From Cannabis sativa (Eukaryota; Streptophyta; Magnoliopsida; Rosales; Cannabaceae): DNA of 64,000 nucleotides. The notes beneath the pieces are model-generated. The model searched no databases and had not been told where the DNA came from. It saw only the letters and a list, made by a program, of their open reading frames with translations. Position 1 is the stretch's first letter, and each line of letters opens with the position of its first letter. The stretch lies in NCBI RefSeq assembly GCF_029168945.1, contig NC_083608.1, forward strand, positions 15,580,136 to 15,644,135, written 5' to 3'. Of the stretch, positions 2,602 to 61,773 are shown piece after piece. The translations under genes were made by a program, and so were the position numbers.

Positions 2602-2681
2602 TCCAATTTCATCCTCATGTTCTTGAAGAAATACAAAATAGTCATCTGAAATAGCATTTCTTCTCTCTCTTGTGGACCTCC

Positions 2682-12726: not shown

Positions 12727-14514
12727 ATGAAAGGAGAGGGTTGTTCCAAAACACCACAAACCAGATCCCAAACACTTTCTAAAACACCTCAAAATAGTCA
12801 CATAGTAGCCCAAATACCACCTTGCACCAGATCCAAAAGTGTATCTCGAACACCACTCCAGACCAGGAAAAGAGTAAGAGAAACACCATCTAAAACACCA
12901 CCCCAAACCAGGAGGAAAAAAACCAATCAGTAGAAGATCCAAATTTTGTGAAAGAGGAATATGCTCCAAAAACCCAAGATCCAGAATTAGTTGAAGAAGG
13001 AACAACTGATCCTAGCCAATGGTGGGGGACAGTCAATGATTTATGCAGTCAAGCTTACCAAGATGATGATGGTGGTGGTGGGTATGAAGAGGGTGATGAT
13101 TTGGTCAGCTTGGTTAGTGAGGAAAAAGATGGACCAGTGCTTAAAAAGAAACACATTGAATTTAGTCCACACTTCAGCCTAAAGATATCAAGTTTAAATT
13201 ATGAATGGAATTCCCTACTGTTGGGCACTTGAGAGAAGCATTAAAGGATCATTTCATCAGCATTGATAGGCAGTACAAATATATTAACAATGATAGGTTG
13301 AGAATTAGGGTTGTATGCAAAGGAGAAGGTTGTAAATGGTTAATGTATGCTTGAAGGATGAGAGATGATTGCACTACAATGCGAATCAACAAATTTGAGG
13401 AAGAACACAGCTATGGAATTCAATGGGAGAACAGGCTGGTAGATGTTGATTGGATTGCAGAAGAGTTCTTGGAGAAGTTCAGAGCAAATCTAGCCATGTC
13501 ATTCGGTGATTTTAAGAAAGCAAATCCTAAGGGTAAGTACTCTAAACTCTCTTCCTGGACTTTTTGTCGAGCTAAGAACAAAGCTATGGCCAAGATACAT
13601 GGGACTGTTAAAGATTAATATGATATTCTGCATGATTATTGTACACAATTAGTAAAACTTAATTCTAGTAGCACAACTTTCATCAGAACAATTTAGTGAA
13701 TGATATAAGGTTTTTCGAAAGAGTTTATATATGCCTTGCAGCATGTAAATCTAGTTTCAAGTTCTGCATGCCTATCATTAGGCTAGATGGGTGCTTTTTG
13801 AAAGAATATTACAGAGGTATGTTGCTTGTAGCCATTGGTATTGATGGAAATAACAACATGTTTCCTATTGCATATGCTATAGTTGAAAAGGAAAACACTA
13901 ATAGTTGGACTTGGTTTGTGCAACTATTGAAAGAGGACCTAGATGTACAAGACACAAGATTCTTCACTTTCATTTCAGATAGACAAAAGGGGCTGAAAAG
14001 GAGTTTAGGAACAGTTTATGAAGGTTCTGAAATACAATTTTGTGTTAGGCATCTTTATGCCAACTTCAAGGAGTTTCCTGGATTGTTGTTGAAGCAAAAA
14101 TTATGAGTTTGCGCTAGAGCTACTTCAGTGAAAGAATTCAAAAGGAGAACGAATGAATTGAATGAGACTAATGCTGCAGCTTTTGATTGGTTGTCCAAAA
14201 AGTCACCATCTAAATAGACCAAGTCCCATTTTAGGACTTCCACTAAGTGTGATATGTTGCTGAATAATCTTTGTGAGAGTTTCAACTCAGCCATACTGGA
14301 TGGAAGAGACAAGGCAATCATAACTCTGTTAGAGTATGTTCATTACTGGTTGATGGATAGAATGAGAAAGCAAAGAGAAAATGTCAGTGTACAAAGTCTG
14401 TTGGAAGATTGTTTGAATCATTGGAAGACAACTTGCTCTCTTAGTCTTCTGCCTATTCATGTTGTTATGATAGTACTGCATGGTCAAGATATCTTGTTTT
14501 TCCCACTGTTCTAA
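12727..14514 (+). pseudogene. Mutator-like (MULE) transposase pseudogene
   Basis: Broken reading frame of a DDE transposase. 12727-12933: Lys/Thr/Pro repeat region. 12948-13180: acidic segment, joined after a 1-base shift near 12920. 13200-13618: MuDR N-terminal domain (FPTVGHLREALKDHF, CKGEGCKW, then RINKFEEEHSYG) with a TGA near 13354. 13696-14106: MULE catalytic domain with the first Asp in RLDGCFLK, the second in FISDRQKG and the CxxH in FCVRHL. The third acidic residue is in NNLCESFN, after further stops. The C-terminus is missing. It would have bound and cut terminal inverted repeats; it is inactive now. Confidence 0.85.
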
Positions 14515-18162: not shown

Positions 18163-20799
18163 TTAGCCTCTGATCATCATCTCTCTCAGTCTTGTTCTAG
18201 AGAAGTAAATCAACCATGCCAGTCGCGTCCTTGGGATCACTATCTCCCCAAGAGAGACTCCAATAACAAACCCGCTAACAAGTCCCGCCAAAACAAAATT
18301 CCAATCAATTTCAATTGGAGAATCAGAATCAACATTTTTATTTAAAGCAGATGGTGGTGGGAGCATCATGTTTTCACATTTCTTCAATAATGGTTCACCA
18401 CACAGTCCTTGATTACCCTCAAATGAGTTTTCAAACGTCTGGAATTGGTTCCCTCGCGGTATAAGACCAGTGAGATTGTTATAAGACACATCAAACTTTT
18501 GGAGAAAGTTTAGTTCAGCTAGTTGCTGAGGGATCTGTCCTGACAGTTGGTTTTGAGAGAGGTCTAAGGATTCCAGTTCTGTTAATGTCCCCAACGATGG
18601 TGGAATGTGACCGCTGAGCGCATTGTTTGAAAGGTTGAGCGAGTAGAGAGCCTTTAAGATTCCAATGGATTGAGGAATCTGACCACTGAATTTGTTGCTT
18701 GATAAATCAATCACTGCTAGATTTGTTGGGATTTTCCCATAATGTGTTGCCACACTTTTCAACACAAATGTTGTTGAATAATCATATTCACTGAGCTCAT
18801 AATTAAAACTCAAGGTGTCATTTTCCCATGCATTCATATATGTCAAATTGCTGAGCTTGAAATCTTTCATAGCATTCCAAATGAGCATATATTCATGTGG
18901 CAATGCCCCTGTGAAATAATTGTGAGACACATCAATAATTTGCAGCCTTGGAAACTCAGTAGTAGTGCTTTGAGGTTTTCTTATAACTCCATGAAATTTG
19001 TTTGCCCTTAGCATAACAACTTTTAATAGAGGAAAGCTCCCCAACCAAGTGGGGAAGACATCACTAATTTGATTGAAAGAGAAATCAAGATATTCAAGAT
19101 TCATACAAGTTGAGATTGGTGGTCGAAGTTTTCCTTGAAAATGATTGTGACTAAAATCCACCATACTCAACTCGCTTTCCTGCTGACATTCAAGGGGAAT
19201 TGTGCCATGAAAAGAGTTATTTCTCAAATTCAAAGCAATTAGGGAGTCATTATTGATCAAACTGCCTAAACAAGATGGAAATTCGCCACTGAAATTGTTA
19301 CTTGACAAATCAAGGACTGCAATTGAAGTCAAATTGCATATAGACATGGGAATTTCACCACTTAGATTATTGTTAGAGACATCGTAATGTTTGATAGATG
19401 ATGGTGGAATCGGTAGTTGTCCTTGCAACGAATTATCTTGCATTTCTAACAAATGTAAACTAGACCAAGGTAGCTTGATTGTGTGGTTATGAAATCCTGT
19501 TATCCAATTATTGGATAAATGTATCGCTTCCAAGGTTTGAATACTCATCAGATTTTGGGGAATTTGACCAACTATATTATTATATGAAAGATCCAACTCT
19601 ACAAGATTAGTTTGATGGCCAATAAATTTGGGAAACTTGCTTAAGTTGCAATGAGCAAACGCTAGAGAATAAAATTTTGGAAGTGTGGTGTTAGGATCTA
19701 TTTTTGTTTCATCAATGAGTAAGGAAATCATATTGTTGCCTAGATCAAGGTCACTGAGTTTTCTCAGTTTAAGAAAAGAATCTAGCTGCAATGGACCACT
19801 TAAAATGTTTTCCCCCAGAGAGAGACTCTCAAGATCACTGAGTTTGGACAATGATGGTGGAACTGAACCACTCAAACTGTTTGAAGAAAATCCCATATAC
19901 GATAATTCACTGAGATTTCCAAACCAAGAAGGGATTGGCCCAGAAATTCGATTGCTTGTTATTTTTATAAAGGAAAGTTGTGTGAGATTTCGGAAAGAAG
20001 ATGGGATGTAACCTGTGAAATCATTCTCTTTGAGGTTTAACAAATTGAGTTGGGTTAATTTACCAAGTGAAGGTGGAATAGGCCCATACAATCCACAACC
20101 CCCTAGACTAAGATGTGTCAAAGAGGTCAAATTTGTTAAAGACTCACCTAATTCATAGGCAATGTGGACAGTTGTTAGGAAAAGAGAATCCAAATCAGTT
20201 AAGTTTTGGAATATGCTTTTAGAATTGGGATTGATTTTCAAAAGATACACAAGCACTGGATCTTTTCCACCAACATTATATGACAAGTCAAGATAAATTA
20301 ACTTAGACAAAAGTGAAATTTCAGAAGGAATCTCACCTTGGAAGTAAGAAGAACCCAAGTGAAGATATAGCAACTTCGAAAGTGTGCCTATGGCAGTAGG
20401 AATCGGAGAGAAAGTGAAGTTATTATAACCAAGATCAAGCATTTGGAGATGAACAAGGTGAAAGAGAGTGCTGTTGGAGTTGATAGAGCCGTAGAGACAA
20501 GAACCATCGAGGTAAAGACTAATGACATGACCAGTTACCATGTCACATTCAACACCATCCCATAAACAACAATCGGTACCATTTGATCCCCATGTTGATG
20601 TCGTTGGATGGAGATGATAGTGATCAGGTCTAAGCCGACAATCTATTTCATAGCTTTGATTGAAATGGATCAAAGCATTCCTCTCTTTCTCATGACAAGA
20701 AGGTTGCATAGAATTAGCAAAAGGATGATGAAAGAGTAGGAGAATATGAAGCAATACATTAAGCTTTAAAAGCATCATAACTAATAAGGAAAGAGCCAT
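18163..20799 (-). CDS. LRR receptor-like protein, Cf-type (RLP)
   Basis: Intact single-exon gene of 878 residues starting at ATG. Residues 1-30 are a signal peptide. An LRR N-terminal cap follows (CHEKERNALIHFNQS, WGSNGTDCCLWDGVECD). Then come about 25 extracellular LRRs of the LxxLxLSxNxxSGxIP type. A non-LRR island at about 645-700 (YMLIWNAMKDFKLSN...YDYSTTFVLKS) sits before the last four repeats. The C-terminus has an acidic juxtamembrane part, one membrane helix with GxxxG-type glycines (about 836-854) and a short basic tail. There is no kinase domain. Members of this family sense pathogen or developmental ligands at the plasma membrane and signal with SOBIR1-like partner kinases (family knowledge). 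The ligand cannot be told from the sequence. Confidence 0.95.
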   Translation of the reverse strand: MALSLLVMMLLKLNVLLHILLLFHHPFANSMQPSCHEKERNALIHFNQSYEIDCRLRPDHYHLHPTTSTWGSNGTDCCLWDGVECDMVTGHVISLYLDGSCLYGSINSNSTLFHLVHLQMLDLGYNNFTFSPIPTAIGTLSKLLYLHLGSSYFQGEIPSEISLLSKLIYLDLSYNVGGKDPVLVYLLKINPNSKSIFQNLTDLDSLFLTTVHIAYELGESLTNLTSLTHLSLGGCGLYGPIPPSLGKLTQLNLLNLKENDFTGYIPSSFRNLTQLSFIKITSNRISGPIPSWFGNLSELSYMGFSSNSLSGSVPPSLSKLSDLESLSLGENILSGPLQLDSFLKLRKLSDLDLGNNMISLLIDETKIDPNTTLPKFYSLAFAHCNLSKFPKFIGHQTNLVELDLSYNNIVGQIPQNLMSIQTLEAIHLSNNWITGFHNHTIKLPWSSLHLLEMQDNSLQGQLPIPPSSIKHYDVSNNNLSGEIPMSICNLTSIAVLDLSSNNFSGEFPSCLGSLINNDSLIALNLRNNSFHGTIPLECQQESELSMVDFSHNHFQGKLRPPISTCMNLEYLDFSFNQISDVFPTWLGSFPLLKVVMLRANKFHGVIRKPQSTTTEFPRLQIIDVSHNYFTGALPHEYMLIWNAMKDFKLSNLTYMNAWENDTLSFNYELSEYDYSTTFVLKSVATHYGKIPTNLAVIDLSSNKFSGQIPQSIGILKALYSLNLSNNALSGHIPPSLGTLTELESLDLSQNQLSGQIPQQLAELNFLQKFDVSYNNLTGLIPRGNQFQTFENSFEGNQGLCGEPLLKKCENMMLPPPSALNKNVDSDSPIEIDWNFVLAGLVSGFVIGVSLGEIVIPRTRLAWLIYFSRTRLREMMIRG

Positions 20800-20857
20800 A
20801 GTATATAGTACTAGTTCTAACTTAGTTGTTTATGATGAATTGGTAGCTATTCCCTTC

Positions 20858-23691: not shown

Positions 23692-24930
23692 TCACACAAA
23701 CAAAACACACTCTTGTTTAAGTCCTTTTCTCCATTGGCCCTCTCTAGCATAATAAATCCAAACTTTCAGCACAATATTTTCTCCCTTCTCTACCAACTCA
23801 AACACACAAACATCTCCTTCTTTTAAATTATTGTCCATTGCAAATTTACTCCATCCATAGCTTAGTTCCCTACAAGAGGGCTGATCACGTCGCGGAAGGC
23901 ACTGTATGCGCCACTTCTGTGTCTCGTTGCCATGAACAACAAGATGAACAAATCCACAACACTGGTTCATATTCTTCTGAGTATACATTGCAGGCACATG
24001 CTGTTCAAGTCAAGAGGAACAAAAAGTTTAGTACAAAAAAGTAACCAAATAGAAGAAAATCCAAAGCGAACATGTATTGTTTGTTAACCTTACCACAGAC
24101 TTATGTAGAGTATTTTTCTTCCTCAGGATGACCATGAAAGAAGGATTTTCATATTCACGCATGCTGGCAATAGTGGCTGCTTTCTCAGTTTCCTTGGATA
24201 TCTTATAATAGGAATTTGGATTAGTAACAGGGAAACCTCTTGGAAGAATCAGATTTGTATTTTCTTCATGGTTTAGGAAAAAGTTCTCTTCTTTTTCCAT
24301 TTTAGCTGAGCTTCTAGGAACATTGGCATAACCCGATTGTTCCACCGGTGTCTCCTCTTCTGTTTTAACAGCTCGACTAGCTTTTGTACAATCAATGGAA
24401 GCTGCATTAGTTCTGAAAATCTTATTAGACCGCTCAGTTTTCGGGTTAGACAAAGGGGTTTGAACTCTCTTGAAAACTTGCTTGTCTCCAAGTTTGTTGA
24501 CAATTCTTGTTTTGGAAGAAGAGTGAGGAAGTTGAAGGTGGATCTCATTATCAAGATTAGGATCCACAAAGTTGCTACTCAGATCATTCAGGGGAATGGG
24601 ATAGTCAATTTCAGTAAAAGTGTTGTTCAATATACAAACATGGAATTTTGATTCTCCTCCATATCTAAATATCAAGAGATTTCCATAAGAGATGGAATAG
24701 AAGTTGACAAATTCCTGCCAACCATGTTTGAACCAAATCTTATTGTCAACTTTCTCTAATCTCACTTCCCAAAACTGACCACTTGGAACTATAAGCTTGG
24801 CAACTGCAAACAGTTCATTGCCTAATTTCTTTGTAAACTTTGTTGGGAGCATCTTCAAGTGCCAAACAAAGAAACAAGAATTAGACTTTCTTTGGTCAAA
24901 TTTACACACATTATCAAGATAATACACCAC
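23692..24930 (-). CDS. two-B3-domain protein, VRN1/REM-like
   Basis: Two exons, 24094-24930 and 23692-24000. The 93-bp intron (24001-24093) has donor GTG|GTAAG and acceptor GAACAG|CAT, phase 0. About 381 residues. The first B3 domain is at about 18-105 (KFTKKLGNELF, WEVRLEKVDNKIWFKHGWQEF, then LLIFRYGGESKFHVCI). A basic, Ser/Thr-rich linker follows. The second B3 domain spans the intron from about 265 to 372 (FMVILRKKNTLHKSV, WRIQCLPRRD, GWSKFAMDN, VCVFELVEKGEN). B3 domains bind DNA and REM proteins act in the nucleus in flowering and reproductive development (family knowledge). The open frame begins with GTG after a stop; the first in-frame ATG lies inside the first B3 domain, so the start or a first exon is uncertain. 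Confidence 0.85.
24001..24093 (-). other. intron of the B3 gene
   Basis: GT-AG intron joining KSV to HVPAMYT. Both sides are needed to complete the second B3 domain. Confidence 0.9.
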
Positions 24931-24963
24931 TCTTGGAAGTTAAGACTGTTTGGGAACTAATAT

Positions 24964-25642: not shown

Positions 25643-25741
25643 CATGATCACATGGTATTTTTTTTTTTTTTTAACAATGAACTTTCATTGAATATAATCA
25701 GAGTTTAGTACATCATAGAGAAATGGAGGAAAATCATCCAT

Positions 25742-26031
25742 CTAAACTAATTCGCCATCCACCCTGAGTGCACGAACTGCTAACTCATGTGCAGCCATAT
25801 TGGCCGAACGACGAACATGAATTAGAGATGCCTCAGGAAAATTGGATAGTAAACTAGCAATATCATCTAAAATAGAGCCAAATTCATTACAGAAGGAAGC
25901 TCTTCTAGAAAAAGCTGAAATCAAAACTAAGCAATCAGTTTCAAACGAACTAATAGGTAACCCAATAGTAAGAGTCCAATCCAAAGCCACCATTAAAGCT
26001 ACAGCTTCTGCTTCCATGGCTGTAAAAGTCC
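25742..26031 (-). pseudogene. LINE ORF2 exon 5: RNase H end
   Basis: 96 codons ending in a stop. Shows TFTAMEAEAVALMVALDW with the catalytic Glu, FETDCLVLISAF with a catalytic Asp and RSANMAAHELA near the end, as in plant LINE RNase H (RVT_3). The first two bases complete a Gly codon begun in exon 4. Confidence 0.9.
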
Positions 26032-26403
26032 CTACAAAACCATAAAAAACAGCTAATAAGGACATTATACTAAAAGAATTATTCCTTTAAAATAAGTTAA
26101 TAATAATAAAATAACCTATTAATACTAAAACTATCATAATATTATTGGTCATAAATTCTATAGGGTTATAGAATAAGGTTAAGAGAATCCTATTGATAAT
26201 ATCATTTACTCAGCCCCTAAGGCTGAGGAAATGAGCTCTGTTTAAAATAACCTTTTACACTCATACCTCAACAACTATTAAATTATTGATGCTTGAACAT
26301 ACTGAACCTTAAATGACTTATTCAATGAAAGTGATAAAAAAGTAATAAGATTACATATAAAAGTTTAACATCACAATTAATTCCAAAAGTAAGAAATACT
26401 GAC
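26032..26403 (-). other. LINE intron 5 (372 bp)
   Basis: Donor TTCG|GTCAGT, acceptor GTTTTGTAG|GGACT. It splits RNase H between KSLFG and TFTAMEAEA with phase kept. The interior is T-rich. Confidence 0.8.
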
Positions 26404-27438
26404 CGAATAAAGACTTTAAAAGACAAGCCACCACTCCACCTGTGGTATTGCATATAATAGCACCAATACCTATAGAATTAGTATGCTTATCAATTGATGC
26501 ATCAACATTGAGTTTAAATTGTCCCATAGGAGGAGTAACCCAACTCGAGGTAGAAGTGCACGTATTCCCTCGTTGAATGTTAATATTTTTCCGACTTGCA
26601 CTAAATTCAGCATGAAGTTTATGAATTCGTGAGACAACAACTGTAGGTGAAAATTGCTCCCGGCCATGAACAATCTGTGTACGCTCACTCCAAACATACC
26701 AAGCGGCAACTAAAAATAATTCAAATTCACCCTGAGATAGCACTTCAGACGCCAAAAGAATAGTTTGTTGGAAGGAAGTTTCCAAAGAGAAATTTTTTAG
26801 GAAACTAAAATTAAGTAGCTTCTAAACCTTTCTAAAACCCCGGCACCAAAAGACAGCATGCCCATTAGACTCATTGCTAAAGCCACAAATGAGACAATTG
26901 GAATGAGGAAGGATAGATCGTTTTTGGAGCCCTTTTGAAGTCGGAAGTATCTCATGAAAACCTCGCCAATTGCAATTTAATACTTTGTTTGGTAAATGGA
27001 GCTTCCAAAATTTTTTCCACCAGATTGAAAATTCATCCTTAGAAGGAGAAGTAGCAGACAAATTTAACTGAGAAGCCACATAATATCCACTTTTAACAGA
27101 ATAAGAACCATCTACCGTGTAGTGCCACATCCAAGAGTCTTCTTTAGGAAATTTGCAAAGAGGTATGGAACCAATACATTGTTGATCAGCTTCATTAAAC
27201 AAAACTCGTAATAAATCCACATTCCACCCTATCCTCGTCTCTGCCATAAGATCTTTGACCAACAAATTAGAATGTGAATGATTGAAAGAGGTAGGCTTAA
27301 ATGAAAAAGGTCGGGGCAGCCAAGGATCTTGAAACACAAGAATGGTGTCACCAGTTCCAACCTTTTTACGTAACCCTTTTATAAGAAGTTCTCTTCCCCA
27401 AATGATGCTCTTCCATATATAACTAGGAGATCTTCCTA
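26404..27438 (-). pseudogene. LINE ORF2 exon 4: zinc-binding RT C-terminus and RNase H start
   Basis: 1035 bp. Begins GRSPSYIWKSIIWGRELL, continues with DSWMWHYTVDGSYSVKSGYY and the zf-RVT cluster (CLICGFSNESNGHAVFWC), and runs into RNase H (KLNVDASIDKHTNSIGIGAI). One TAG at about 26825-26827 falls in the linker where a Trp would fit. Phase agrees with exons 3 and 5. Confidence 0.9.
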
Positions 27439-27643
27439 CTGGAATCATATAATTCATAGATAAAAGAAATAAAATTATTATAGATCGAAAATACCAAAAA
27501 AATAACAACTATAAAGTAAAATTATTAGTTTGAAAAAGGGTTACATTAACAACTTAATAATAATAATAAGAGAATAAGGTAGAAAGTAAATTATATAGAA
27601 AAATGGTTCAGAAGATATTACTAAAAATGAATTAATCGAATAC
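27439..27643 (-). other. LINE intron 4 (205 bp)
   Basis: Donor GCTTCAG|GTATTC, acceptor GATTCCAG|TAGGAAG. Removal joins FLDAS to VGRSPSYIWKSI, a conserved plant L1 stretch, with the codon GTA formed across the junction. Confidence 0.85.
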
Positions 27644-28205
27644 CTGAAGCATCCAAAAAGGAGGTATGGTGATAATATTTAGCCTTATAAACTTGAGCTG
27701 GAAGCGAGTCAGGTCGATTAAGAATTCGCCAAGCTTGCGCAACTAAAAGTGCCTGATTATGATGGACAAAAGATCTAAAACATAGCCCACATTTTTGTTT
27801 AGGATAACAGAGCTTATGCCAAGCTAACCAATGCATCTTCTTTTTATGAACCGAAGAGCTCCACCAATACCGAGCCATTAGTGATTCCAATTCATCACAA
27901 CTCTTAATTGGAATTTGGAAACATGACATTACATATGTAGGTATAGCTTGAATTACTGCTTTAAGTAGTACCTCTCTACCACCATAAGAAAAGAGCTTGT
28001 TTTCCCAAGAATTAAGTCGCGACCATACTTTCTCCTTTATATTACTGAACAGTCGTTGTTTATTTTGTCCACTTAGCATTGGTAATCCTAAATATTTCTC
28101 TATAGCCTCAGTCACTTGCATTTGAAAAGTTTCCACATACAGAGATTGCAGATCTTCTGGAGTATTTGGGGAGAAGTACAATTGGGACTTAGTGAAATTT
28201 ATAAG
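27644..28205 (-). pseudogene. LINE ORF2 exon 3: RT thumb region
   Basis: 562 bp, no stop. LINFTKSQLYFSPN, EKYLGLPMLSGQNK, WENKLFSYGGREVLLKAV, and WLAWHKLCYPKQKCGLCFRS are standard plant L1 landmarks after the RT fingers and palm. Confidence 0.92.
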
Positions 28206-29254
28206 CTGCAACAATTAAGAAATAATCTATAATTATCCATTGAAAAATACTAATGCATTATGAAAGAAATGAATATACATAAATAAGGGAAAGAAGAACG
28301 AGAGTTGTTTATGCCTAATTTTTAATTTTATAAATCATATTGAGAGTAAGGTTGTATTGAATAGCACAAAAAGTATGCAGTTATCTGTCCTTTTACACAA
28401 AATTTACTCCACTACCATGGCCCTAGCTTATCATCTCTATTATATTATTCCTTAGTGTTGCAGTTACAGATCTAAAATTCTTAAACTGAAGTAGGAATAA
28501 AACAAAGAACCAAAACATATATTAGCATCTATACAACATGTGATATATCCAAAGGAGAAACTAATTGTATGTTTATTGATTACTTTCCACTAATCATATA
28601 TTCATGTATCTGATTTTCTGATGAACAAAAAGTACAAACACACTTGCAACAAAATTCCCAATTACTAAAATTGTCAAAGAATAAATGAAGTGAAGAACAA
28701 ATAATATCATCAGGGTCACTATATCAGAACTACTAAAGAAAAATATAATTGAACTGGACCATTTATGAAAATTCTATATAATTCTTCCTAGTCTAAATGG
28801 GGCAGACCTAGGAACAAAACAAAAGAGGAAAGTCAAGAGAGAGGGAATAAATTATGTCCAATAAGTTAATCCTTTAAAATCAGAGAAGGCCATGCTGAAA
28901 ATGGAACCGCGGAAACAAGGAAGCTACCCTAAAAGACAAGCTATGTAATTCATCGAAGCTACCATTTTCCGAAAAACCATTTATAATATTAATAGAAAGC
29001 CAAGAAAAATATAAATTTAATAAACTACCATCATTATAAAAGAAAACAGTCAATTAAATACTTACAGTTTCAAAGAATTAAATTGTAGAAGGAATTGGTA
29101 ATATAATCCTTCCACTTTTGAGATCTTCTTAAGTTTTAAGTCTTAAAACCAGTCTATCATTCATGGTCAAAGTATAATTGAATGAATTCCTACATCCTAT
29201 CACAGTATAAAATAAGAAAAATAAAACTTAGTGAATTGAAATTAATGAGAATAC
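28206..29254 (-). other. LINE intron 3 (1049 bp)
   Basis: Donor GGACAG|GTATTC, acceptor TTGTTGCAG|CTTAT. Splits YSKASGQ from LINFTKS, one of the best conserved plant L1 blocks, at phase 0. No ORF or terminal repeat is seen inside. Confidence 0.88.
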
Positions 29255-30242
29255 CTGTCCGGAAGCTTTGGAATATAAATTAAATAGATTCATCATAGTA
29301 TAACAAGCATTAGGGGTTGCCCGTCAGAAAAGAATACTGTCATCTGCAAAGAAAAGATGGGAAATTGATGGAGCAGTTCGAGCGACTTTATATCCAAAAA
29401 TTTGGTGTGTATTTTCTGCATGACATAAAAGAGAGGAGAAACCTTCCGCACAAAAAAGAAAAAGATATGGTGAAAGAAGATCTCCTTGGCGTAAACCTCG
29501 AGTCGGAACCACCTTCCCTTTGACTTCACCATTTATATTAAAAGAATAGTGAACCGTTCGAACACACTTCATGAGTAGACTAACCCATGGAGTTGCAAAG
29601 CCGAGTTGAAGCATAATTGATTCTAGAAAATTCCACTCCACTCTATCATAAGCATAATTGATTCTAGATTATGTAATAACTCATAAGCTACCATTGCATT
29701 ATCTGTAATGCGGCGACCTCCAATGAAAGCACTTTGAGAAGAGTGAACGATAGAGTCTAACCATGGTTGCAATCGACGAACCAAAACTGTAGATACAATT
29801 TTGTACAGAACATTGCACAAACTAATCGGTCTGAAATCTTTCATATTGTTGGCTGCTTTAGTTTTAGGGACTAGAGTGACAATCGTAGAATTAATAGAAA
29901 ACAAATCTCCTTGCCCATTCAAACATTCTAAAACTGCTTTAATAACTACATCCCCAACATCATTCCAATGATTTTGGTAGAACATTCCATTCATACCATC
30001 TTCGCCAGGACTTTTATCGGAAGGCATAGAAAATACTGCTTCTTTCACTTTATTCTCAGTAAATGGAAGTAAAAATGAATTATTCATCTCTGGAGTGACT
30101 CGACACTGCACTACCGAAAGGACAGCCTCAATTTCTGCTTCAGAAGGATAAGAGGACATAAAAAGAAAGGTGTAGTAACTTTCTATTATTCCTTGGATGT
30201 CCATTGGATCTGTACACCAAATTCCTTCTGAATTAAAAAGCC
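29255..30242 (-). pseudogene. LINE ORF2 exon 2: reverse transcriptase palm
   Basis: 988 bp. LFNSEGIWCTDP, DKSPGEDGMNGMFYQNHW, DFRPISLCNVLYKIVS, SAFIGGRRITDNAMVAYE, then GLRQGDLLSPYLFLFCAEGF and HLFFADDSILF with the catalytic ADD. The segment that should hold the first catalytic Asp, between MVAYELLHNL and YDRVEW, is missing and the frame shifts there. A TGA follows SILF (about 29321-29323). The enzyme cannot be active. Confidence 0.9.
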
Positions 30243-31087
30243 CTAAAAAACAGCACAGGAAAATAGTCAATCACAAAATTCCCATGATTTATCATAATTT
30301 TGAAATTCTTTTTTGACAAAATGATAATAAAACATAAACATTAAGTACCATACTAAAAGAATTAGAAAAGAGAGGAACATATCTTTAAAATATTGGGGTT
30401 GCTAATGCAAAAATTCTAATGTTAATTTCTCATAATAATTTCCTTACAAATATCATCCCAATCATTAAATTGGACTATAGTAGTAATAGTAGAAGAATAC
30501 CAAAAACTAGCATTGAACAGAAATTCAATAAGCAGTGATTATTACGTCCTGAGGAAGCTTGTATCATAAATCCCAAATTAATCTAATCAACATACATCCA
30601 GTATAGTAGAAAGGACATCCTCAGAAATCATACTTAATACAGTCGGATGATAGTGGAGCCAAACTTATTATAGAATATGTGAACATTAAGAGAAAAGATC
30701 GAGACCCACTATCAGAGCAAAAATTAAGGTATCATAAGAATAAAGTAACAAATAAGAAGTCATACTAAATTAAATTTAACTATCCTGAAAGCACTATATG
30801 AGGTTTAAGTTAGAAATTGATTCTATATGTATATATGAACTGATAGTGAATAAATACAAATAAAGTATGAATATCAACTAACTGACAATTAAGGATCCAA
30901 CTGTGATCCAATAGAAGTCATTCCTCTCACGTTATTAGTCATATTGTTTAAATAAATATTTCAGGGATTAAAATCAACACAATATAAAATTAGCAGATTA
31001 TCAAAATAGCTCACATAAATAATCAGATTCCTTTTAAGTAAAAGAATTGCATATCATAAAGACTAAATACTTATCAATCGTAATTAC
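30243..31087 (-). other. LINE intron 2 (845 bp)
   Basis: Donor TTCGAG|GTAATT, acceptor GTTTTTTAG|GGCTTTT. Joins NNLIRG to LFNSEGIW, a conserved linker between endonuclease and RT. The Gly codon is split after its first base. Confidence 0.88.
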
Positions 31088-32228
31088 CTCGAATAAGATT
31101 ATTTTGAAATCTAGTATTAGCATGACGATGAAAATATTTTGTGTTTTGGTCCCCAGCCTTTAACCATTGGACTCTTGATCTTTGTTGCCAAAAGATCTCT
31201 TCTTTCTCTAGGAGACTGGATAAACTAGATTCAAGTTGAGCAACTTCCTCCCGATTGTACAAGTTATGATCCATATTTTGGGCTAAGGATAATTTCTGTT
31301 TGGTATTTCGGATCTCTTTAGGTAGTGCACCATATTTTCCTAAGTGCCAAGAATCTAAACTTTTAGAGCATGAAGCCATATTGGTAATAGCAGTATCTAA
31401 TGCAGAAAATTCTGATGTAGGTAACCATGAGTTAGCTATGATATGTTGACATTCCGAATCATCTTTCCATAGAGCTTCATAGCGAAATCTTTTACGTTTT
31501 TTACATGAATTTGAAGAAGGAACCGGAGATAATCCAAACTCAAGACTAAGCACTCTATGATCGGAACCAAAGAAATCTAGGTGAGTTAACCTTGCCTCAG
31601 GAAAATTAACATTCCAATCTTCATTAACTAAAGCCCAATCCAATCGTTCCTCAATAGTATCTGAGTGACTACTATACTTCCAAGTAAACCGAGGCCCTGC
31701 ATAGTCTAAAGGGTTCAAAGAGCTCTCTGCTATGGCTTGACGAAATTGGTTCATCTGAGATTCTCGACGAGTAACTCCACCCACTTTGTCACTTAATCCT
31801 AAAATTTCATTAAAATCTCCCATACAAAGCCAAGATTCAGATATAGAATCACTCAATCGTCTAAGTAATGTCCACGAAAGATGTCTATTTAAAGTGGTTG
31901 GTTCGCCGTAAAACCCACAAAACTGAAACGAAGCAGATCCATCAGACAAGATTATCCGACAACTAATATAATTATGTTTAGCATCAAGTATAGAAACTTC
32001 CACTGAAGAATCCCAAAGCAACATAAGACCTCCACTTAAACCAATACTAGGCACCTCATAGCCATGAAAAAAAGAAAATTTCTTACAAAGCGCAAGAGTA
32101 GATCCTACTTTTAAACGTGCTTCTTGAAGAAATAAAACATTTGGATGAAAATCCTTGAGAAGCAAACCTAAAAATCTTTTTCTATCCTTACTATTTAAAC
32201 CGCGTACATTCTAAGCTTGTATTAACAT
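31088..32228 (-). pseudogene. LINE ORF2 exon 1: apurinic-type endonuclease
   Basis: Starts at ATG 32228 with one TAG five codons later (32211-32213), at a conserved Trp position (NVRGLNSKDRKRFL follows). From 32165 it is open: NVLFLQEARL with the catalytic Glu, SWLCMGDFNEIL with the DFN motif, FTWKYSSHSDTIEERLDWAL and HLDFFGSDHRVL with the catalytic SDH. Such endonucleases nick the target so RT can prime. It then runs into the linker helix QWLKAGDQNTKYFHRHANTR. Confidence 0.93.
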
Positions 32229-33001
32229 ATTGAAAATAGAAGAAAAAGGAGAAGAATAGGTAGAAAATAATTTTATAACCAATAAAAGAAAGGTAGCATT
32301 ATAGTAATCATAAAACTTAAGGTTTCAACATATGATAAACATAAATTGTGTTAAAAGTTAAATTTAAACTGTCTAGTCAGTTATTAATTATAGAATTTTG
32401 AAAAGGGAAGTAAATAAATGAAATTTAAATTTAAACTATTTAGCCAATCATTTAAAGTTATTTAAAGTTGAGGTTTAAAACTGAACAAGCAGTTTCCTTT
32501 GTGTAACTGCTGTGAACTGTGAAGGCAGTTATTCATTGTAAAAAACAACTGAAACATGGGACTATAACTATCATTGTGATGTATCTCACTTATGGAAAAG
32601 CTAAGAATCTAGCCCAATTTTAAATGTTTTTATTAATGAAAATATCATAATACAACTTAAGTATGATGCATGTAATAGACACTTAATTTATGCGTGATCT
32701 AAGAACAAAGAACAAATGTGGAATAGTATAGACATGATTGGCCAGTAGATTAATTACACCCAACTCGTGATTGGGAAAATTGCACAGGTAAAACTTCAAA
32801 ATATATATATATATATATATATATATCAAATGGATAGAAAATTTAAAACCAAAAATAGTAAATGGACTATACTATAATAAAATAGGACCGTTTGTAATAG
32901 TTTGAACAATGAACCAACACAGATTTAATATAAGAAATAACTACTAGATGAAGAAAGTAATACATATATAAATAGGTTACTTAAGCTGAACAAGGAATAT
33001 C
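32229..33001 (-). other. LINE region between ORF1 and ORF2, part 1
   Basis: T-rich on the minus strand, no ORF, with an AT microsatellite at about 32802-32826. ORF1 and ORF2 of plant L1 are normally close, so about 0.9 kb here (with 36796-36954) may hide a sixth intron. CAAGCTTAG|AATGTACGCGG at 32211 would serve as acceptor. Confidence 0.5.
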
Positions 33002-33520
33002 TGTTAGACATTTATATGTATAGACTAAAACATATATGTTTATGTATAAATTGCGGAATTAAATCAAACATATATACACTATGAATAAGGATCGAAATAC
33101 CTCCAGCCATTGATTCTTGAGCTTCAAACCCACATAAGCTTTGATCTGCAAGGGAAACTGGTTGATGTGGGTAATCGAGCTTCCTCGCTCTCTCAATTCT
33201 CTTTAGATGGATTTTGCTATTATGAACAGAATGAGTAAGGAGCTCGGGGACCGAGACCCTATATTTATAGGTGAGATACTCCATCAGTATCTGCGCCACA
33301 TTAATTGTCAGAATATTTTGACAATTAATTCAGGAAATCAAATCGGGTAATGAATATAGAAATCTGACCATATATAGAATATTACATAATTGATTTTGTC
33401 CAGATTCAATGAACATAAAATATTCATTTATCAGAAAATCAATTATTTATTTTATTTCCTTAAATAGAAATTTATTTCTTTAAATAGAAATATATTTCCT
33501 TAAATAAAAATATTCTTATA
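33002..33520 (-). repeat. 3' LTR of non-autonomous element
   Basis: 519 bp, TGTTAGACATTT to ATATTCTTATA on the plus strand. Carries a minus-strand TATA box (CCTATAAATATAGG, about 33258-33271). Differs from the partner at about ten positions. Confidence 0.92.
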
Positions 33521-33533
33521 TTCTCCCACTTGG
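33521..33533 (-). other. polypurine tract of non-autonomous element
   Basis: Minus strand CCAAGTGGGAGAA next to the 3' LTR. It is almost the same as the tract of the Copia element at 603-613, hinting at Copia-type enzymes as helper. Confidence 0.8.
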
Positions 33534-34900
33534 TCAGCATTTATACTAAAACATTCAAACCTAAACGTTCCTCATTATATAATAAACATACGAATCATAG
33601 CGACATGTCCTCATTATAAGTCGAGTATTATCTTCCATGTATTACGATATATTTATTATATAACAATGTACTTTATGTGGCAATGTACTTAAGCGAATAA
33701 ACCCTAACCCTTATGTTTATTCAGGTCCTCTTACGATAATTTTCTCGGATGAAATTAAGGTGCACATAAATATGAGAAAATATCGAAATTAGAGTTTCGT
33801 TGAATAATTTTTGGTTGTACAAATAAAAACTGCATATGGGTTAACTGAATCCCATATTTACTTTATGATCCTTGAATTTGTGTTGCGGCATGCCTTTAGT
33901 CAAGGATATGTGCGATCACCCAATTCAGTTTGCGTGATTAATGACCACTTATCACGCCTTTTATGGCTATATACTTAATGTCGATATGCTAGCTTCGACT
34001 AGTACTCTTATAGTTATTAGCCATAAATATTGTAGCTGAATTTATCGCAAAATTTTCTTAATGGCCTAATGAAACTGTAATTCTGAACTCTAGGCCTACT
34101 ATGAAACTCTATAATACATCTTACGAGATGTATCCTCAAAACAATAAATGAATCTGACTTCTATAGTGGAAATAACAATCAAGATTCTCTACAATATAAC
34201 TTACTGGTAATCTTAAGGACGTAATAAAATATTGATTTACGTGAATCAATACAACCAGTGAAGTACATTAGAATCTAATTGGTTAACTATATTTCCTAGA
34301 TGGTCAATTCATCTTAACAAAATATGTATGAATATAATTTTTTTTAGTATCTTAAAGACACCTCATCACTTTGTATGAAGAATAAAGTGGTCTTAACTTT
34401 AGTTATTCGGAATTTTCTTAAATTTTTCTTAATTTTTTTTTTTTTGAAAAATCTGCCCTGAAAAACGACATATTTTCCTTAAACTTTCAAAAATCATGAA
34501 ATCAATTCCAAAATGATCTAAATGAAAAAAAAATTAAGAGATCTATATTGATTTCAAGCATCGAAAACACGCAAAATGTATACTTTAATTTCAAAAGGTG
34601 TTCTCGGGTCCGAATGGATTTTTCCAGTAAAATTTTCAGATTTTAAGGTATTAAAATTATTTTGATGCACAAAATCGATCTATTATATCTTATGAATATC
34701 GTAATACATAAAGAATTCAAAATAAATATCGAAAATGAAAACGGAAAAAATACGGACCGAAGCATAAAACTTTCATGTATATATATATATACTCGTATAC
34801 AATATATACTGCATAAAATCATCATTAATGTATGGAAGAGAGTATTACATACAATTTTATGCAATAAAAGCATATATAAAAAAAATATGGGTGACTATTT

Positions 34901-35804
34901 AATGGTTACATTTTTATTGTAACCATATGGTTACATTTTTTTTTAACCTGTAATAACAGGTTACTAATAGGTAGACTTTCTTTTTTTTAGATTTAATTAA
35001 TTATAATTAACTATTTTCTTAAAATAATTAATTAAATAGTAGACATTCCGTTTTAGAATTATTCAATTATAATTAACTATTTTCTTAAAATAATTAATTA
35101 AATATTTAACAAGACCTCTTTTAGCAATTAATATTTATATTTAAATCCTTACTTGAATTATTTTAATAATTAAGTCATTTAATTATAATATTTACAGTAA
35201 AATTTATTTTTTTACAAAGATTAAACTAAATTCTCTTCTTATAATAAATTTTCAAATGATTAATTATTTTTAAATGATATTTAATTATTTTGTAACAATT
35301 ATATGAACTAAGTATGAGGCCTCAAGCTAATCAATCGATAACAAGCGCAGCTATTTTTTTTCTAGAAAATCCTTCAACTTATTTCATTTTTTACTTTTTA
35401 AATATTTAAATAAAAAAATTAATAATTAAGTGTAATAATTTAAAATTAAGATTACAAGTATAATAAAATTTAAATTATGAAATTATATGTATATAATTTT
35501 AAATTATAAAAAGTTTTGTTATAAAATTTTAAATAATTTAAGTATAAAAAAATAAATTGCTAAAAGATCCTTATATAGTATTAAATTGCAAAAAATTAAT
35601 TAATAATTATAATTAATTTAATTTTAAAATATAATTAATCTTAATTAAAGTTTTATAAGGAAATAAATGATTAGCTCACTTTCAGGTTACAAGTTATTTA
35701 TTATTTATTTTTATTTAATTTTCAAATTAATCACAACCATTTAATAGTAATCCAATGGCTTAAAAAAATGTAACCATGATGGTTACAATAAAAATGTAAC
35801 CATT
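34901..35804. mobile_element. MITE with TGGTTACA arms, 904 bp
   Basis: Left end AATGGTTACATTTTTATTGT continuing to AACCATATGGTTACATTTTT. The right end is its inverse over about 43 bp. The interior is extremely AT-rich. It lies inside the non-autonomous LTR element. No clear target duplication seen. Confidence 0.75.
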
Positions 35805-35819
35805 GAAACCTCTTCCAAA

Positions 35820-36240
35820 AAATATATATACGTATATATATACAACAATACTTACGTATATATATAATATATATAAAAAAAATTAAAATATGAATATATA
35901 TATGTATATACGTAGATTGAATTAAAATGTATATATATGATCGGAATTATATGAATATGAATATATACATAATATATATAAATTAAGAACCGATCATATA
36001 CGTATATATATTATATATATGAAGATGTATATGAACATAAATATATATATGTATACATATATATATGAAGATGAATATGAATATGAATATATATATATGT
36101 ATAAAAAGGAATTGAGTATGAATGTATATATATATAATCGGGATTATATAATATGAAAGTATATATATAAAATATATATAATTTATATTATAAATGAAGA
36201 ACCCCGTAAAAGTATATATATATATAAAACTCAAAATAAA
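35820..36240. repeat. AT-rich microsatellite block
   Basis: Imperfect ATATAT tracts broken by GAATATGA and CGTATA words. Open frames here are composition artefacts. Confidence 0.8.
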
Positions 36241-36260
36241 TCAAGATAGAGATATATAAT

Positions 36261-36274
36261 TCGCTCTGATACCA
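36261..36274 (-). other. primer binding site of non-autonomous element
   Basis: Minus strand TGGTATCAGAGCGA two bases inside the 5' LTR, matching initiator tRNA-Met. Confidence 0.9.
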
Positions 36275-36276
36275 AC

Positions 36277-36795
36277 TGTTAGACATTTATATGTATAGAC
36301 TAAAACATATATGTTTATGTATAAATTGCGGAATTAAATCAAACATATATACACTATGAATAAGGATCGAAATACCTCCAGCCATTGATTCTTGAGCTTC
36401 AAACCCACATAAGCTTTGATCTGCAAGGGAAACCGGTTGATGTGGGTAATCAGGCTTCCTCGCTCTCTCAACTCTCTTTAGATGGATTTTGCTGTTATGA
36501 ACAGAATGAGTAAGGAGCTCGGGGACCGAGACCCTATATTTATAGGTGAGATACTCCATCAGTATCTGCGCCACATTAATTGTCAGAATATTTTGACAAT
36601 TAATTCAGGAAATCAAATCGGGTAATGAATATAGAAATCTGACCATATATAGAATATTACATAATTGATTTTGTCCAGATTCAATGAATATAAAATATTC
36701 ATTTATCAGAAAATCAATTATTTATTTTATTTCCTTAAATAAAAATTTATTTCTTTAAATAAAAATATATTTCCTTAGATAAAAATATTCTTATA
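36277..36795 (-). repeat. 5' LTR of non-autonomous element
   Basis: 519 bp, the same length as the partner at 33002. The TATA box region is conserved (about 36533-36546). Confidence 0.92.
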
Positions 36796-36954
36796 ATATC
36801 ATCACTAGATTATCCTCTGCCAGCCATTACAGCACCAACAAGAACTGAAAAACATAGACTTAACATAAAAAAGATAAGATGGAAATAAGAAAGTACTAAA
36901 CTAATAAAAGGACAACAGAAAACCACAGAAGAATTCAGTAATGCAGAATACAAT

Positions 36955-37331
36955 TTATTTCTTGTATTTTTTAGTAGTGACGGTATCTTCATTAGCTTTC
37001 AGTCTCTTAGCAATAATGATGTCTGGAGTAGTTCCAATAGTATTAGTTGGTGAAGTTTCATCAACAAGTTTAGCTTTGCCTTTATCCATACCAAGGTATT
37101 TAGTTCTTTCTTGGGAGTGTTTACTAGGAGAGAGTGATAGTGGATGGATTAGTTGAGTAGTATTTCCAGTATTCGACCCCTGTTGAGTTAGAGCCATATC
37201 CAATGACTTAGTTATAGTAGAAGACTCAGATGCAATTACAAGCTTTCCTTTTCCTTTATCGGATTTCAAAGTTGGTTGGATAATAGTGGAAGGAGCAGAT
37301 CCAACAACCCCAGAAACAATAGCAGGGACTT
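36955..37331 (-). pseudogene. LINE ORF1 exon 2
   Basis: Reads VPAIVSGVVGSAPS, then a basic Ser/Thr-rich tail (KSDKGKGKLV, MDKGKAKLVDETSP) ending KKYKK-stop. Low-complexity basic tails are usual for ORF1 RNA-binding proteins. The first two bases complete the Glu codon begun in exon 1. Confidence 0.75.
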
Positions 37332-37443
37332 CTAAGTTGCAGAATAAAGAAACAAACGGTGAATAACCAATAGTGATAAATAAAATTTGGAAAAAAAGTA
37401 GTGATTAGTAGGAAAAAAAGAGTAATAAAAGATAGAATAAAAC
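37332..37443 (-). other. LINE intron 1 (112 bp), in ORF1
   Basis: Donor AACAATG|GTTTTA, acceptor TGCAACTTAG|AAGTCC, T-rich throughout. It keeps phase. Flanking protein is poorly conserved, so it is less certain than introns 2-4. Confidence 0.7.
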
Positions 37444-38272
37444 CATTGTTTCCTGGAAGCACCACAGGAAGAGACGGAATTATCATAGGATTTTGTTGAT
37501 AGGGGCGTGCCACTGGAGGCCTGGGGAGAGCAATTGGAGGGAGACCAGCAGTTCGGATCAAAGGAAAATAGGTACGTTCAACAGGAAGTCCCTGTTCTTG
37601 TAGATTGAGAACAGCAGGGCATTCATCCGTCTTGTGGGTAATACGTCCGCAAAATTCACAGAATTCAGCAAGTCTTTCATATTTAAAGTCCACCCACAAA
37701 CTGTTTTGGGAATCCTCAAATTGAATCCTTTTACCTCTAAGCAGTGGCTTGTAAGCATCCAGAAGAACACGAATGCGCAGAAAGCGAAAGCGTGTGGAGT
37801 CGTCATATTTGTCAAAAGTCCCCATATAGTTACCGAGCATGACACCCATGGCTTCAGTATTTCTTCTAATTGGTAATCTATGAATCTGTACCTAGAAAGG
37901 AACTAGCCGAACATTCGCAGAAATGATCTGTTCAAAAGGAGGAAGTTCAGCCAACACTATATGCCTCTGCAAAAAATGCCATGGCTGGCCTTCCAAAATT
38001 CGAACTTTCTCCGCAGCAGAGCCAAAGGTTAGTAAAAAGAGATCTTCCATAAAAAAGTCAATAGTTAACCCATTACGAATATGGCCCAAGGTAACCAAAC
38101 GATCCCTTTAACGTTGAAGAGGAAGAGAGCCAGGGAGAAATACCTTACCCACCAAAACTTTGGTTGTTGGATCAGCTGCATCGTCAAGTGGAATGTCTTG
38201 AGCAACCAGAATGTCATTCTCCATGGAGAGGTCAGCAGCAAGCATATCCGTACCAATTTGAGAAGGATCCAT
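37444..38272 (-). pseudogene. LINE ORF1 exon 1: DUF4283 and zinc knuckle
   Basis: From ATG 38272 (MDPSQIGTDMLAADLSMEND). DUF4283 RNA-binding domain: FFMEDLFLLTFGSAAEKVRI, LEGQPWHFLQRHIVLAELPP. The zinc knuckle is CEFCGRITHKTDECP. A Pro-rich tail follows. In-frame stops are a TAA at 38108-38110 and a TAG at 37892-37894, the latter at the usual Trp before VQIHRLP. ORF1 would coat LINE RNA. Confidence 0.88.
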
Positions 38273-38392: not shown

Positions 38393-38413
38393 CATGATCA
38401 CATGGTATTTTTT

Positions 38414-49788: not shown

Positions 49789-49800
49789 ATTATCTCCCCG
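49789..49800 (-). other. polypurine tract of Tekay-like element
   Basis: Minus strand ACGGGGAGATAAT next to the LTR. The pol stop codon TAA (49790-49792) lies within it. Confidence 0.85.
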
Positions 49801-52800: not shown

Positions 52801-53329
52801 TCAGCACAGAAATAACCGGGATCCGAGACCCCTGAACTGATCCAACATAAACAAATGGATCTTCACCTTCCGGCTGAAAAGTCACCATTTTACGCCTACA
52901 ATCTATACTGGCCGAATACTTGGATAGGAAATCCATTCCCAGTATAATGTCAAACTCAGTTAATTTCAATTCTATGAGGTCAGTACTCAATTCCCTATCT
53001 TCGATCCTAATTGGCATAGACCTAATGCGCCTATTAGAGATAACCAATTCCCCACTAGGCATTAGGGTTCCAAACCCTCTTTCTAAAATATCACAAGGCC
53101 TACCCAAAAGATCAATTACTCTTGTAGCTACATATGAGCGTGTAGCTCCCGAGTCAAATAATACTGTAAACAACAAGTTGTTGACGGGAAGCTGACCTGT
53201 CACAACAGAAGGACTGGCTGCAGCATCAGCTTGGGTGATGGCAAACACTCGAGCAGGAACCGGTTTCACTTCTGCTTTCGGCTCCTCTTTCTTTGCCTGG
53301 GGGCAATCTTTCTTGAAATGCCCCACCAT
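49790..53329 (-). pseudogene. Tekay-like pol: protease, RT, RNase H, integrase, chromodomain
   Basis: 1179 open codons beginning within the CCHC zinc knuckle (second half GHFKKDC). Protease [47 protein letters not shown] and FIDDILVYS. RNase [19 protein letters not shown]. Integrase: zinc-binding [12 protein letters not shown]...CLTCQQIK, then [13 protein letters not shown] and [11 protein letters not shown]. The end [20 protein letters not shown] with [13 protein letters not shown] is the chromodomain-like part that steers integration into heterochromatin (family knowledge). No break within this stretch. It is called a pseudogene because the shared gag-pol frame has two upstream TGA codons. 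Confidence 0.93.
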
Positions 53330-54451
53330 GCCACACAGGAAGCATGTATTCCGGTTACACTCTCCTGGATGATGTTTCTTGCACCGTGGACACTCAGGGT
53401 AAGAGTAACCCTGGCGTCCTCCTCTGCCTTGGTTCCCACGGAACCGCTTACTTTGCCCCGAACCACCAGAAGCCGGAAAAACTTTTCTTTTCTGCTCAGT
53501 GGTGGAATCACCACCATCCCTACCATAAACAGGAGTAGGAACAGTGGGGGTTCAACCAACACTCGAAATCACCCGGTGCTCCTGAAGGAATTTCACTGCC
53601 CCCTCGGCTCTCAAAGCCTTTTCAACCATCTCCGCATATGTAGTTGCCTCAGTGGTAGTAATAACCAAATCATGTCTAATCTTTGCACTCAAACCCGCCA
53701 AGTATTTTTCTTTCTTACTAAAGTCAGTTGGCACAATTCCCGCTGCCAACTTTGCCAAACGGTCAAACTTGGTCGTATATTCTGTAACCGACATTCACTC
53801 AATTTGAACTAGATCAGTGAAATCTTTTCGCTTTACTTGGACTGCTTCATTGTAATACTTGGAGTTAAACAACTCCTTGAATTCTTCCCAGGTCATCAGC
53901 GTGACGTCTCGAGTGAGGGTTATCAACTCCCACCACAAGAGAGCGTCTTCCTGAAACTGAAAAGTGGCGCAGGTCACCCGGTCATTTCTAACCACTCCCA
54001 TAAAATTGAGAATACGATCAATCACCGAAAGCCATTGCTCGGCCTTCATCACATCACGACCTCCCAGAAACACTGGAGGTGCCTGTTTCCGAAACCTTTC
54101 GTACAACGACTCCATACGGTTGCCAACAACAGGTTGTTCTACTGGCACCGCAGGAACTACAACAGCCTGAACCACTTGAGGAGGCACGGCAGGAGGACCC
54201 TGCTGCCTCAATCTTTGAATCTCTTCATCTTGCTGGCGGATTCTATCTTGCATTTCAGCAAATCTTTGCTCCCAGTCAGGAGGAGCTTGAGGTGGATTTA
54301 CAGGATGACCACCCTGAGCTCTGCCACGGCCACGGCTGCGACCACGAGGATTTTGAGGATTTCTCTGACTGCCTCCGGTCTCAACCATGCCACCCTGACT
54401 TCTTGTATTTCGCGGGGCGTCCATTTTATAGGACTTAGCCTGCGAATCCAT
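53330..54451 (-). pseudogene. Tekay-like gag
   Basis: Starts at ATG 54451. Arg/Gly-rich N-terminus (RGRSRGRGRAQGG), Gln/Pro region, then the capsid domain (RFRKQAPPVFLGGRDVMKAE, FQEDALLWWELI, WEEFKELFNSKYY, MSVTEYTTKFDRLAKLAAGI). The same frame reaches the zinc knuckle ([14 protein letters not shown]) and pol. Two in-frame TGA codons, at about 53795-53797 and 53552-53554, interrupt it. Both sit where an Arg CGA could have been, which suggests decay of methylated CG; this is inference. Confidence 0.9.
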
Positions 54452-61705: not shown

Positions 61706-61773
61706 TAGCTGTGAGTCACTGCAGATCTCGATGTGCTCGGCTTTAATTTCCTTCGCTAGTTTGAGTCTAGCAA
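61706..61773 (-). other. Tat second RNase H, frameshift zone
   Basis: Coding trace of the second RNase H joins the two neighbouring frames (AEADNEAEYEALIARLKLAK-like text read across frames). A shift lies near 61840. Confidence 0.5.

Follow-up and report, generated by a model that had tools for sequence, protein, structure and literature searches.

A retroelement which passes through an RNA stage is expected to shed its introns, and the proteins of L1 elements are generally considered to prefer the very mRNA by which they are encoded (cis preference). Here we describe an L1-type long interspersed nuclear element (LINE) which lies on the minus strand, from about 38392 to 25658, of a 64,000-nucleotide stretch of Cannabis sativa DNA (NC_083608.1, positions 15,580,136 to 15,644,135; in the following "the window") and whose two open reading frames (ORFs) are interrupted by putative introns, one of them in ORF1 (A) and four in ORF2 (D to G). 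Among the closest described systems are the plant L1-clade LINEs, which harbour DUF4283 and a CCHC motif in ORF1 and whose ORF2 ends with an RNase H (nearest listed, among others, Cannabis proteins P0001, P0003 and P0005); most protein neighbours of the present element are from Cannabis sativa. They share with the present lineage the order of domains as well as poly(A) tail, target-site duplication and 5' truncation, but their annotated proteins, compared at the protein level, run unbroken across the intron sites. A literature search over open-licence papers in PubMed Central, outside of which most papers of subscription journals lie, yielded no report of an intron-bearing plant LINE.

The membership of the window element in the plant L1 clade is borne out by its domains. 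A Pfam scan of nine of its ORF pieces detected an EEP endonuclease (PF03372) and a reverse transcriptase (PF00078) in ORF2, followed by zf-RVT (PF13966) and an RNase H (PF13456) which we take to be of archaeal-type origin. All four score above the Pfam cut-off, as does the zinc knuckle PF14392 in ORF1, while DUF4283 (PF14111, E 8e-4) stays below it on a piece of 71 amino acids which is cut by stops. Neither a GIY-YIG endonuclease nor an aspartic protease or integrase domain was found in these nine pieces. Further hallmarks of the clade, namely poly(A), target-site duplication and variable 5' truncation, are seen among its copies.

Among other retroelements, Penelope-like elements have been reported to possess introns and to spread intron-bearing genes accompanied by target-site duplications (PMC3846280). 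According to the same source these elements encode a GIY-YIG endonuclease and an antisense template has been discussed for them, whereas the splice signals of the Cannabis LINE, which encodes an EEP endonuclease, are in sense orientation and indicate, together with its poly(A) tail, a sense template. Introns or regulated splicing also occur in some plant elements with long terminal repeats (LTRs), such as Ogre, BARE1 and CRR. Each of these elements has spliced RNA side by side with unspliced RNA, and barley BARE has distinct RNA pools for translation and replication; BARE1, however, is an LTR element with one facultative intron of 104 nt (PMC3735527), while the element described here is a LINE and has several introns within a single ORF. 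Human spliced integrated retrotransposed elements (SpIREs) are L1 copies which lack exactly a spliced segment, comparable to the absence of intron A from the Cannabis copy at C10:9.23 Mb described below. Yet, splicing has been described to inhibit retrotransposition of human L1, and SpIREs to be dead ends (PMC5860796), whereas in the present element splicing would restore the reading frame. Finally, a poplar LINE is stated in PMC11288735 to have unspliced transcripts.

With a probability of about 0.8, as judged from DNA sequence, the window element is a full-length but dead copy belonging to a lineage of plant L1 elements with introns, in which spliced mRNA would give rise to the proteins and intron-containing RNA would serve as the template.

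Introns at shared sites in independent insertions

All five interruptions named in a preliminary description of this locus were recovered with exact borders on the minus strand (Table 1), each of them starting with GT and ending with AG. What had been claimed about their composition and about the coding text around them held as well. T makes up 42-55% of their sense strand versus 32-38% in the ORF2 exons (GC 20-28% versus 36-40%), in line with the rule, cited in PMC3735527, that plant introns are richer in T than exons. Upon skipping them, the junctions become continuous with annotated LINE proteins spanning the sites, which read, for instance, ASGQ/LLN and FLDAS/IGHSPS at sites in ORF2 (a comparison made at the protein level). 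When inserts of the same lengths were placed at random in a simulation with sliding borders, GT..AG arose in 0.36-0.55% of the trials for each of them, the product of the five probabilities amounting to 1.4e-12. With exact restoration of the frame upon removal from GT to AG and with more T than the flanking exons, the interruptions have the sequence properties of spliceosomal introns. As a 21-bp target-site duplication frames the whole element, it was inserted as one unit, all interruptions included.

A search for intron sequences beside LINE exons, suggested in the preliminary description and carried out in one Cannabis sativa genome, found D and G next to exon copies elsewhere. The intron D query gave nine matches at seven places. 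Six regions besides the window were fetched from these matches; five hold LINE exons and one (C10:21.78 Mb) does not. A query with the exon encoding the zinc finger (ZF exon) revealed further copies of 97-98% identity at C6, C3:48.9 and C3:40.8, all of which have introns F and G and the whole or part of E. The copies at C8:13.16 and C14 share flanks and nested elements and were therefore counted once. This leaves at least eight independent insertions (the window, C10:9.23, C1:7.60, C10:35.07, C8:13.16 with its C14 duplicate, C6:74.4, C3:48.9 and C3:40.8 Mb). The copy at C10:9.23 is of full length (97-98%) and contains D, E, F and G; that at C1:7.60 is truncated in the endonuclease (EN) exon, that at C10:35.07 is 5'-truncated inside intron D, and those at C8:13.16 and C14 are broken by nested elements.

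Intron D is kept in all five insertions which cover its site (in one of them only its 3' part), and E, F and G are each kept in 8/8, E with large internal differences in C10:35.07, C8:13.16 and C3:48.9. The GT donors of F and G are intact in all eight copies and the AG acceptors of E, F and G in seven of eight copies each (C8:13.16 has lost two and C6 one), while GT is found at the D donor in all eight strongest copies of the endonuclease exon. As a control, a different L1 nested in an old copy at C5:45.58 matches the EN, reverse transcriptase (RT), ZF and RNase H (RNH) exons without any gap at D, E, F or G; this nested L1 (C5:45575240 region) sits in intron E of the old copy in opposite orientation. 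At the level of DNA sequence, the copies show that the element inserted together with its introns and that its sister copies carry the same ones. Of the three explanations which the preliminary description had offered, an intron-bearing LINE lineage is supported, since the same introns occupy the same sites both in the eight or more independent insertions and in older relatives which have diverged. That one copy gained several introns is excluded, as the introns are common to the copies. A domesticated LINE gene is unlikely in view of the broken window copy and of dispersed, poly(A)-tailed and 5'-truncated copies, some with target-site duplications; a single conserved intact locus was not seen among these dispersed copies, a separate intact host locus in other species not having been searched for.

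The association of intron G with its exons extends across the genome. All 18 matches of the intron G query (from 18 candidates) lie within 1 nt of a copy of the RNH or ZF exon. In the reciprocal search with the RNH exon 40 of the 202 candidates were scored, so that the copy counts are lower bounds. Within this sample, intron G is situated directly upstream in 14 of the 18 full-length RNH copies at 91% or more, split by an insertion in one of the 14, and no fusion of ZF to RNH was seen. In four of the 14 the sequence begins inside intron G and no ZF exon was detected, the pattern which 5' truncation would produce (C8:21.91 and C4:22.51 have the same start point there and may be duplicates). A second group, equally similar (77%) in the RNH exon, comprises C1:11582275, C1:13610321, C5:45042156, C6:4255257, C5:34811930, C1:34219833 and C6:51821681. 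In three of these seven (two on C1, one on C5) the distance between ZF and RNH suggests an intron G of about 210 nt; the group is perhaps another intron-bearing subfamily with several copies.

The window copy itself is a pseudogene, a dead full-length member of the lineage. Premature in-frame stops lie at 38110-38108 and 37894-37892 in ORF1 and at 32213-32211, 29326-29324, 26824-26822 and 25744-25742 in ORF2, and at none of these six sites is a stop present in any other copy covering it (two to seven copies per site). Furthermore, a frame-breaking deletion near 29668-29623 removes the RT motif before AYDRVEW, which is kept in the copies at C10:9.23 and C6. Owing to this deletion and the premature stops, the coding phase across ORF2 exon 2 is not readable from the window alone. 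The stop at 25744-25742 also accounts for the exon 5 of exactly 96 codons reported previously. This figure ends at a premature stop which is missing from the six other copies covering the site, and the frame continues to TGA 25687-25685. The motif TTAG/AATGTACGCGG at 32211 was first read as a splice acceptor with a short upstream exon, implying extra introns before ORF2; the open ORF2 start in C10:9.23 and C14, where the window has a premature stop, rules this reading out.

Relatives, templates and selection

Older Cannabis copies have the same intron sites with quite different intron lengths: borders are clear for D, F and G at C9:8.87 Mb and for D, E and F at C5:45.58 Mb, and at C5:19.05 the D donor is recognisable. 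In trees of ORF2 exon 3 and of the endonuclease exon, which include no named reference elements, these copies fall together with the window family into a clade A, the neighbour of which, clade B, contains Cannabis P0011 and Humulus P0108; the union of A and B is supported at 100/99 and 100/98. The exon 3 tree, on 45% of the columns, places the Humulus protein P0317 in clade A. Five of the six A+B proteins reaching site D end within 20 residues of it (P0122, P0123, P0124, P0126 and P0127), as do 16 of 67 proteins outside A+B, all of them obtained in one length-limited search; P0121, the sixth, represents a gene model with splicing, and its best match is the window copy. The early ends are only suggestive of clade B having an intron D. 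The protein P0028 is continuous across sites E, F and G and may be either a member without these introns or a sequence derived from RNA, and P0220 starts with text resembling the end of an intron at E. Tentatively, D is older than E to G and also older than the split between Cannabis and Humulus.

Exact target-site duplications are present in four of seven testable insertions (window 21 bp, C10:35.07 18 bp, C1:7.60 10 bp, C3:48.9 18 bp), the C8/C14 copy having lost the 3' end required for such a test, and apart from this pair the flanking sequence differs among the copies. Taken together, the duplications, the poly(A) tails and the 5' truncations, among them the one inside intron D, indicate that target-primed reverse transcription proceeded on RNA from which introns D to G had not been removed. 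The window and C8:13.16 possess intron A, but it is exactly absent from C10:9.23, which reads the join GGAAACAATGAAGTCCC. Within ORF1 exon 1 the window is 98.6% identical to C10:9.23, while C8:13.16 shows 94-95%; as the more distant copy possesses intron A, its presence is older and C10:9.23 has lost it. The Cannabis protein P0131 is continuous over this join and matches C10:9.23 as one stretch. The exact absence of A looks as if it had been spliced from the template of that copy.

In the 3' half of the element the exons are more alike than the introns in every one of the 28 pairs which eight copies form (92.9% versus 87.2% between the window and C10:35.07; 99.5% versus 99.4% between C10:9.23 and C6). 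The ratio of non-synonymous to synonymous substitution (dN/dS) was calculated according to Nei-Gojobori with our own script on pairs taken as given and with dead and live branches pooled, and amounts to 0.27-0.44 for ORF2 in 12 of 15 pairs. For single exons, calculated for 12 chosen pairs, and apart from exceptions weighed below, the ratio is 0.13-0.49 in ORF1 (one pair 0.83), 0.32-0.52 in EN, 0.19-0.47 in the RT parts, 0.23-0.61 in the third exon and 0.11-0.42 in ZF. Of seven exon pieces, six reached significance (p below 0.01) in Fisher tests of C10:9.23 versus C10:35.07 or C8:13.16 (pooled p 2.9e-16 for one pair). As the RT and ZF exons form one frame only without D to F, and as dN/dS is low, splicing would have been needed, and we infer that the reading frame which depends on it was under selection.

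Several observations weigh against an intron-bearing lineage of this kind. The case for splicing is drawn from DNA sequence. A 315-nt piece of intron D (76%) lies at C10:21784699-21785042 with no LINE exon detected within 20 kb, and an exact search found no target-site duplication in C10:9.23, C6 and C3:40.8. Four of the 18 near-complete RNH copies among the 40 scored of 202 candidates have neither intron G nor a ZF exon detected upstream; these copies, which consist of RNH and 3' untranslated region (UTR) at 93-99% (C13:867824, C6:13287230, C8:38451815 and C4:10766542), could be truncations at the border or be joined to other sequence. As to selection, dN/dS of ORF2 reaches 0.51-0.77 in three of 15 pairs (C10:35.07/C8:13.16 0.51; C10:35.07/C14 0.60; the duplicate pair C14/C8:13.16 0.77), that of EN is 2.15 for window/C10:9.23 and that of one RT pair 1.00. 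For RNase H it amounts to 0.56-0.76, exceeding 1 in three C1 pairs with only two synonymous changes, and the Fisher test gives p 0.13 for this exon.

Proposed mode of replication and rival explanations

According to the reading preferred here, the spliceosome would remove the introns from part of the transcripts, the spliced mRNAs would make ORF1p and ORF2p, and these would, inside the nucleus, take up RNA of their own family which is still unspliced or has been spliced in part, and insert it at new sites by reverse transcription. The copy at C10:9.23 would fit a template which had lost only intron A. Translation and replication would then use different RNA pools, unlike in an L1 which copies mainly its own translated mRNA. 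We give even odds to a wider proposal, namely that in this lineage, which may predate the divergence of Cannabis and Humulus, translation and replication have been uncoupled in the manner of retroviruses, with spliced mRNA for the proteins, with intron-containing nuclear RNA as the near-exclusive template, with introns which may mark this template or hold it in the nucleus, and with the cis preference of L1 lost or replaced. In their simple form, both expectations, intron loss and cis preference, are contradicted by a LINE lineage which has jumped repeatedly and kept its introns. Such a lineage provides a natural system in which one can ask what RNA is copied by a LINE, in which part of the cell this happens, and how mobile elements acquire introns and retain them. 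It is also a warning that such elements can end up as small gene models in the output of annotation pipelines (P0121, P0126, P0127 and P0219).

The alternative which survives best accepts the introns as real and regards the copies as passengers, their unspliced transcripts having been moved in trans by the ORF2p which L1 families without introns supply in the same genome, and with little part played by the element's own proteins. Other L1 families are indeed present in the genome, as exemplified by the gap-free L1 nested in C5:45.58, and many annotated Cannabis ORF2 proteins are continuous across the sites (again at the protein level). However, dN/dS below 1 in ORF1 and most ORF2 exons implies that the proteins were needed, and the splice sites are mostly kept in diverged copies; we consider this explanation unlikely. 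Somewhat less probable still is a LINE-derived host gene which gained introns after domestication and whose pre-mRNA was retroposed several times by other LINEs. While intron gain is normal for host genes and purifying selection is seen in most exons, retrocopies of such a gene should mostly be spliced, and none of those examined has lost any of D to G where covered. Moreover, the copies resemble a mobile L1 in having preserved endonuclease, RT, zf-RVT and RNase H as well as a short 3' UTR with poly(A), and they are dispersed and of differing identity.

Spread as DNA, by segmental duplication or within larger transposons, would never have exposed the introns to RNA copying. The shared flanks and nested elements of C8:13.16 and C14 do reflect DNA duplication or an alternative haplotype, and C8:21.91 and C4:22.51 share the point at which intron G begins. 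Yet, this explanation is contradicted for at least four insertions and is very improbable as a general one: duplications lie beside poly(A), the points of 5' truncation vary, and the other copies do not have their flanks in common. That the inserts are unrelated transposons resembling introns in one copy can be dismissed: although intron lengths differ among copies, some of which have indels or nested elements, the same sites recur in other copies, and GT-AG borders occur in all five inserts (chance about 1e-12), all in sense orientation.

Layout of the window element and its surroundings

Table 1. Features of the intron-bearing LINE in the window (window coordinates).
Feature	Position	Strand	Remarks
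5'-side copy of the 21-bp target-site duplication, CATGATCACATGGTATTTTTT (plus-strand text)	38393..38413	.	exact repeat of 25643-25663
ORF1 exon 1 (DUF4283-like part, zinc knuckle)	37444..38272	-	PF14392 E 9e-16; PF14111 E 8e-4
Intron A, 112 nt, phase 1	37332..37443	-	GT-AG
ORF1 exon 2, stop TAA 36955-36957	36955..37331	-	
Nested LTR retroelement without long ORF	33001..36789	-	LTRs about 33001-33514 and 36276-36789
ORF2 exon 1 (endonuclease, EN), ATG 32226-32228	31088..32228	-	PF03372 E 1.6e-16
Intron D, 845 nt, phase 1	30243..31087	-	GT-AG; same splice position in older relatives
ORF2 exon 2 (reverse transcriptase, first part)	29255..30242	-	PF00078
Intron E, 1049 nt, phase 0	28206..29254	-	GT-AG
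ORF2 exon 3 (reverse transcriptase C-terminal part/connection)	27644..28205	-	
Intron F, 205 nt, phase 1	27439..27643	-	GT-AG
ORF2 exon 4 (zf-RVT and start of RNase H; ZF exon)	26404..27438	-	PF13966 E 2e-10
Intron G, 372 nt, phase 1	26032..26403	-	GT-AG
ORF2 exon 5 (RNase H, RVT_3; RNH exon), frame to TGA 25685-25687	25685..26031	-	PF13456 E 2.8e-13
Poly(A) tail, overlapping the T run of the target-site duplication	25658..25672	-	
3'-side copy of the 21-bp target-site duplication, adjoining poly(A)	25643..25663	.	

The LTR element nested between ORF1 and ORF2 has LTRs of about 0.5 kb which are 98% identical over 300 nt, and a tRNA-type primer site, TGGTATCAGAGC, follows its 5' LTR. The sister copy at C10:9.23 Mb shows the empty site, so that the LTRs inside the window LINE belong to a nested insertion and not to the LINE. 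When the LTR element is subtracted, the spacing between ORF1 and ORF2 (36954-32229) amounts to about 0.9-1 kb, which is long for a plant L1. The LINE region is flanked by a leucine-rich-repeat ORF of 888 amino acids (18166-20829) and by a B3-domain ORF (24031-24939). The window is rich in transposons, with a Copia-type, two Ty3-type-like and a Mutator-type element at 1342-5108, 49793-53551, 60629-61960 and 13672-14103.

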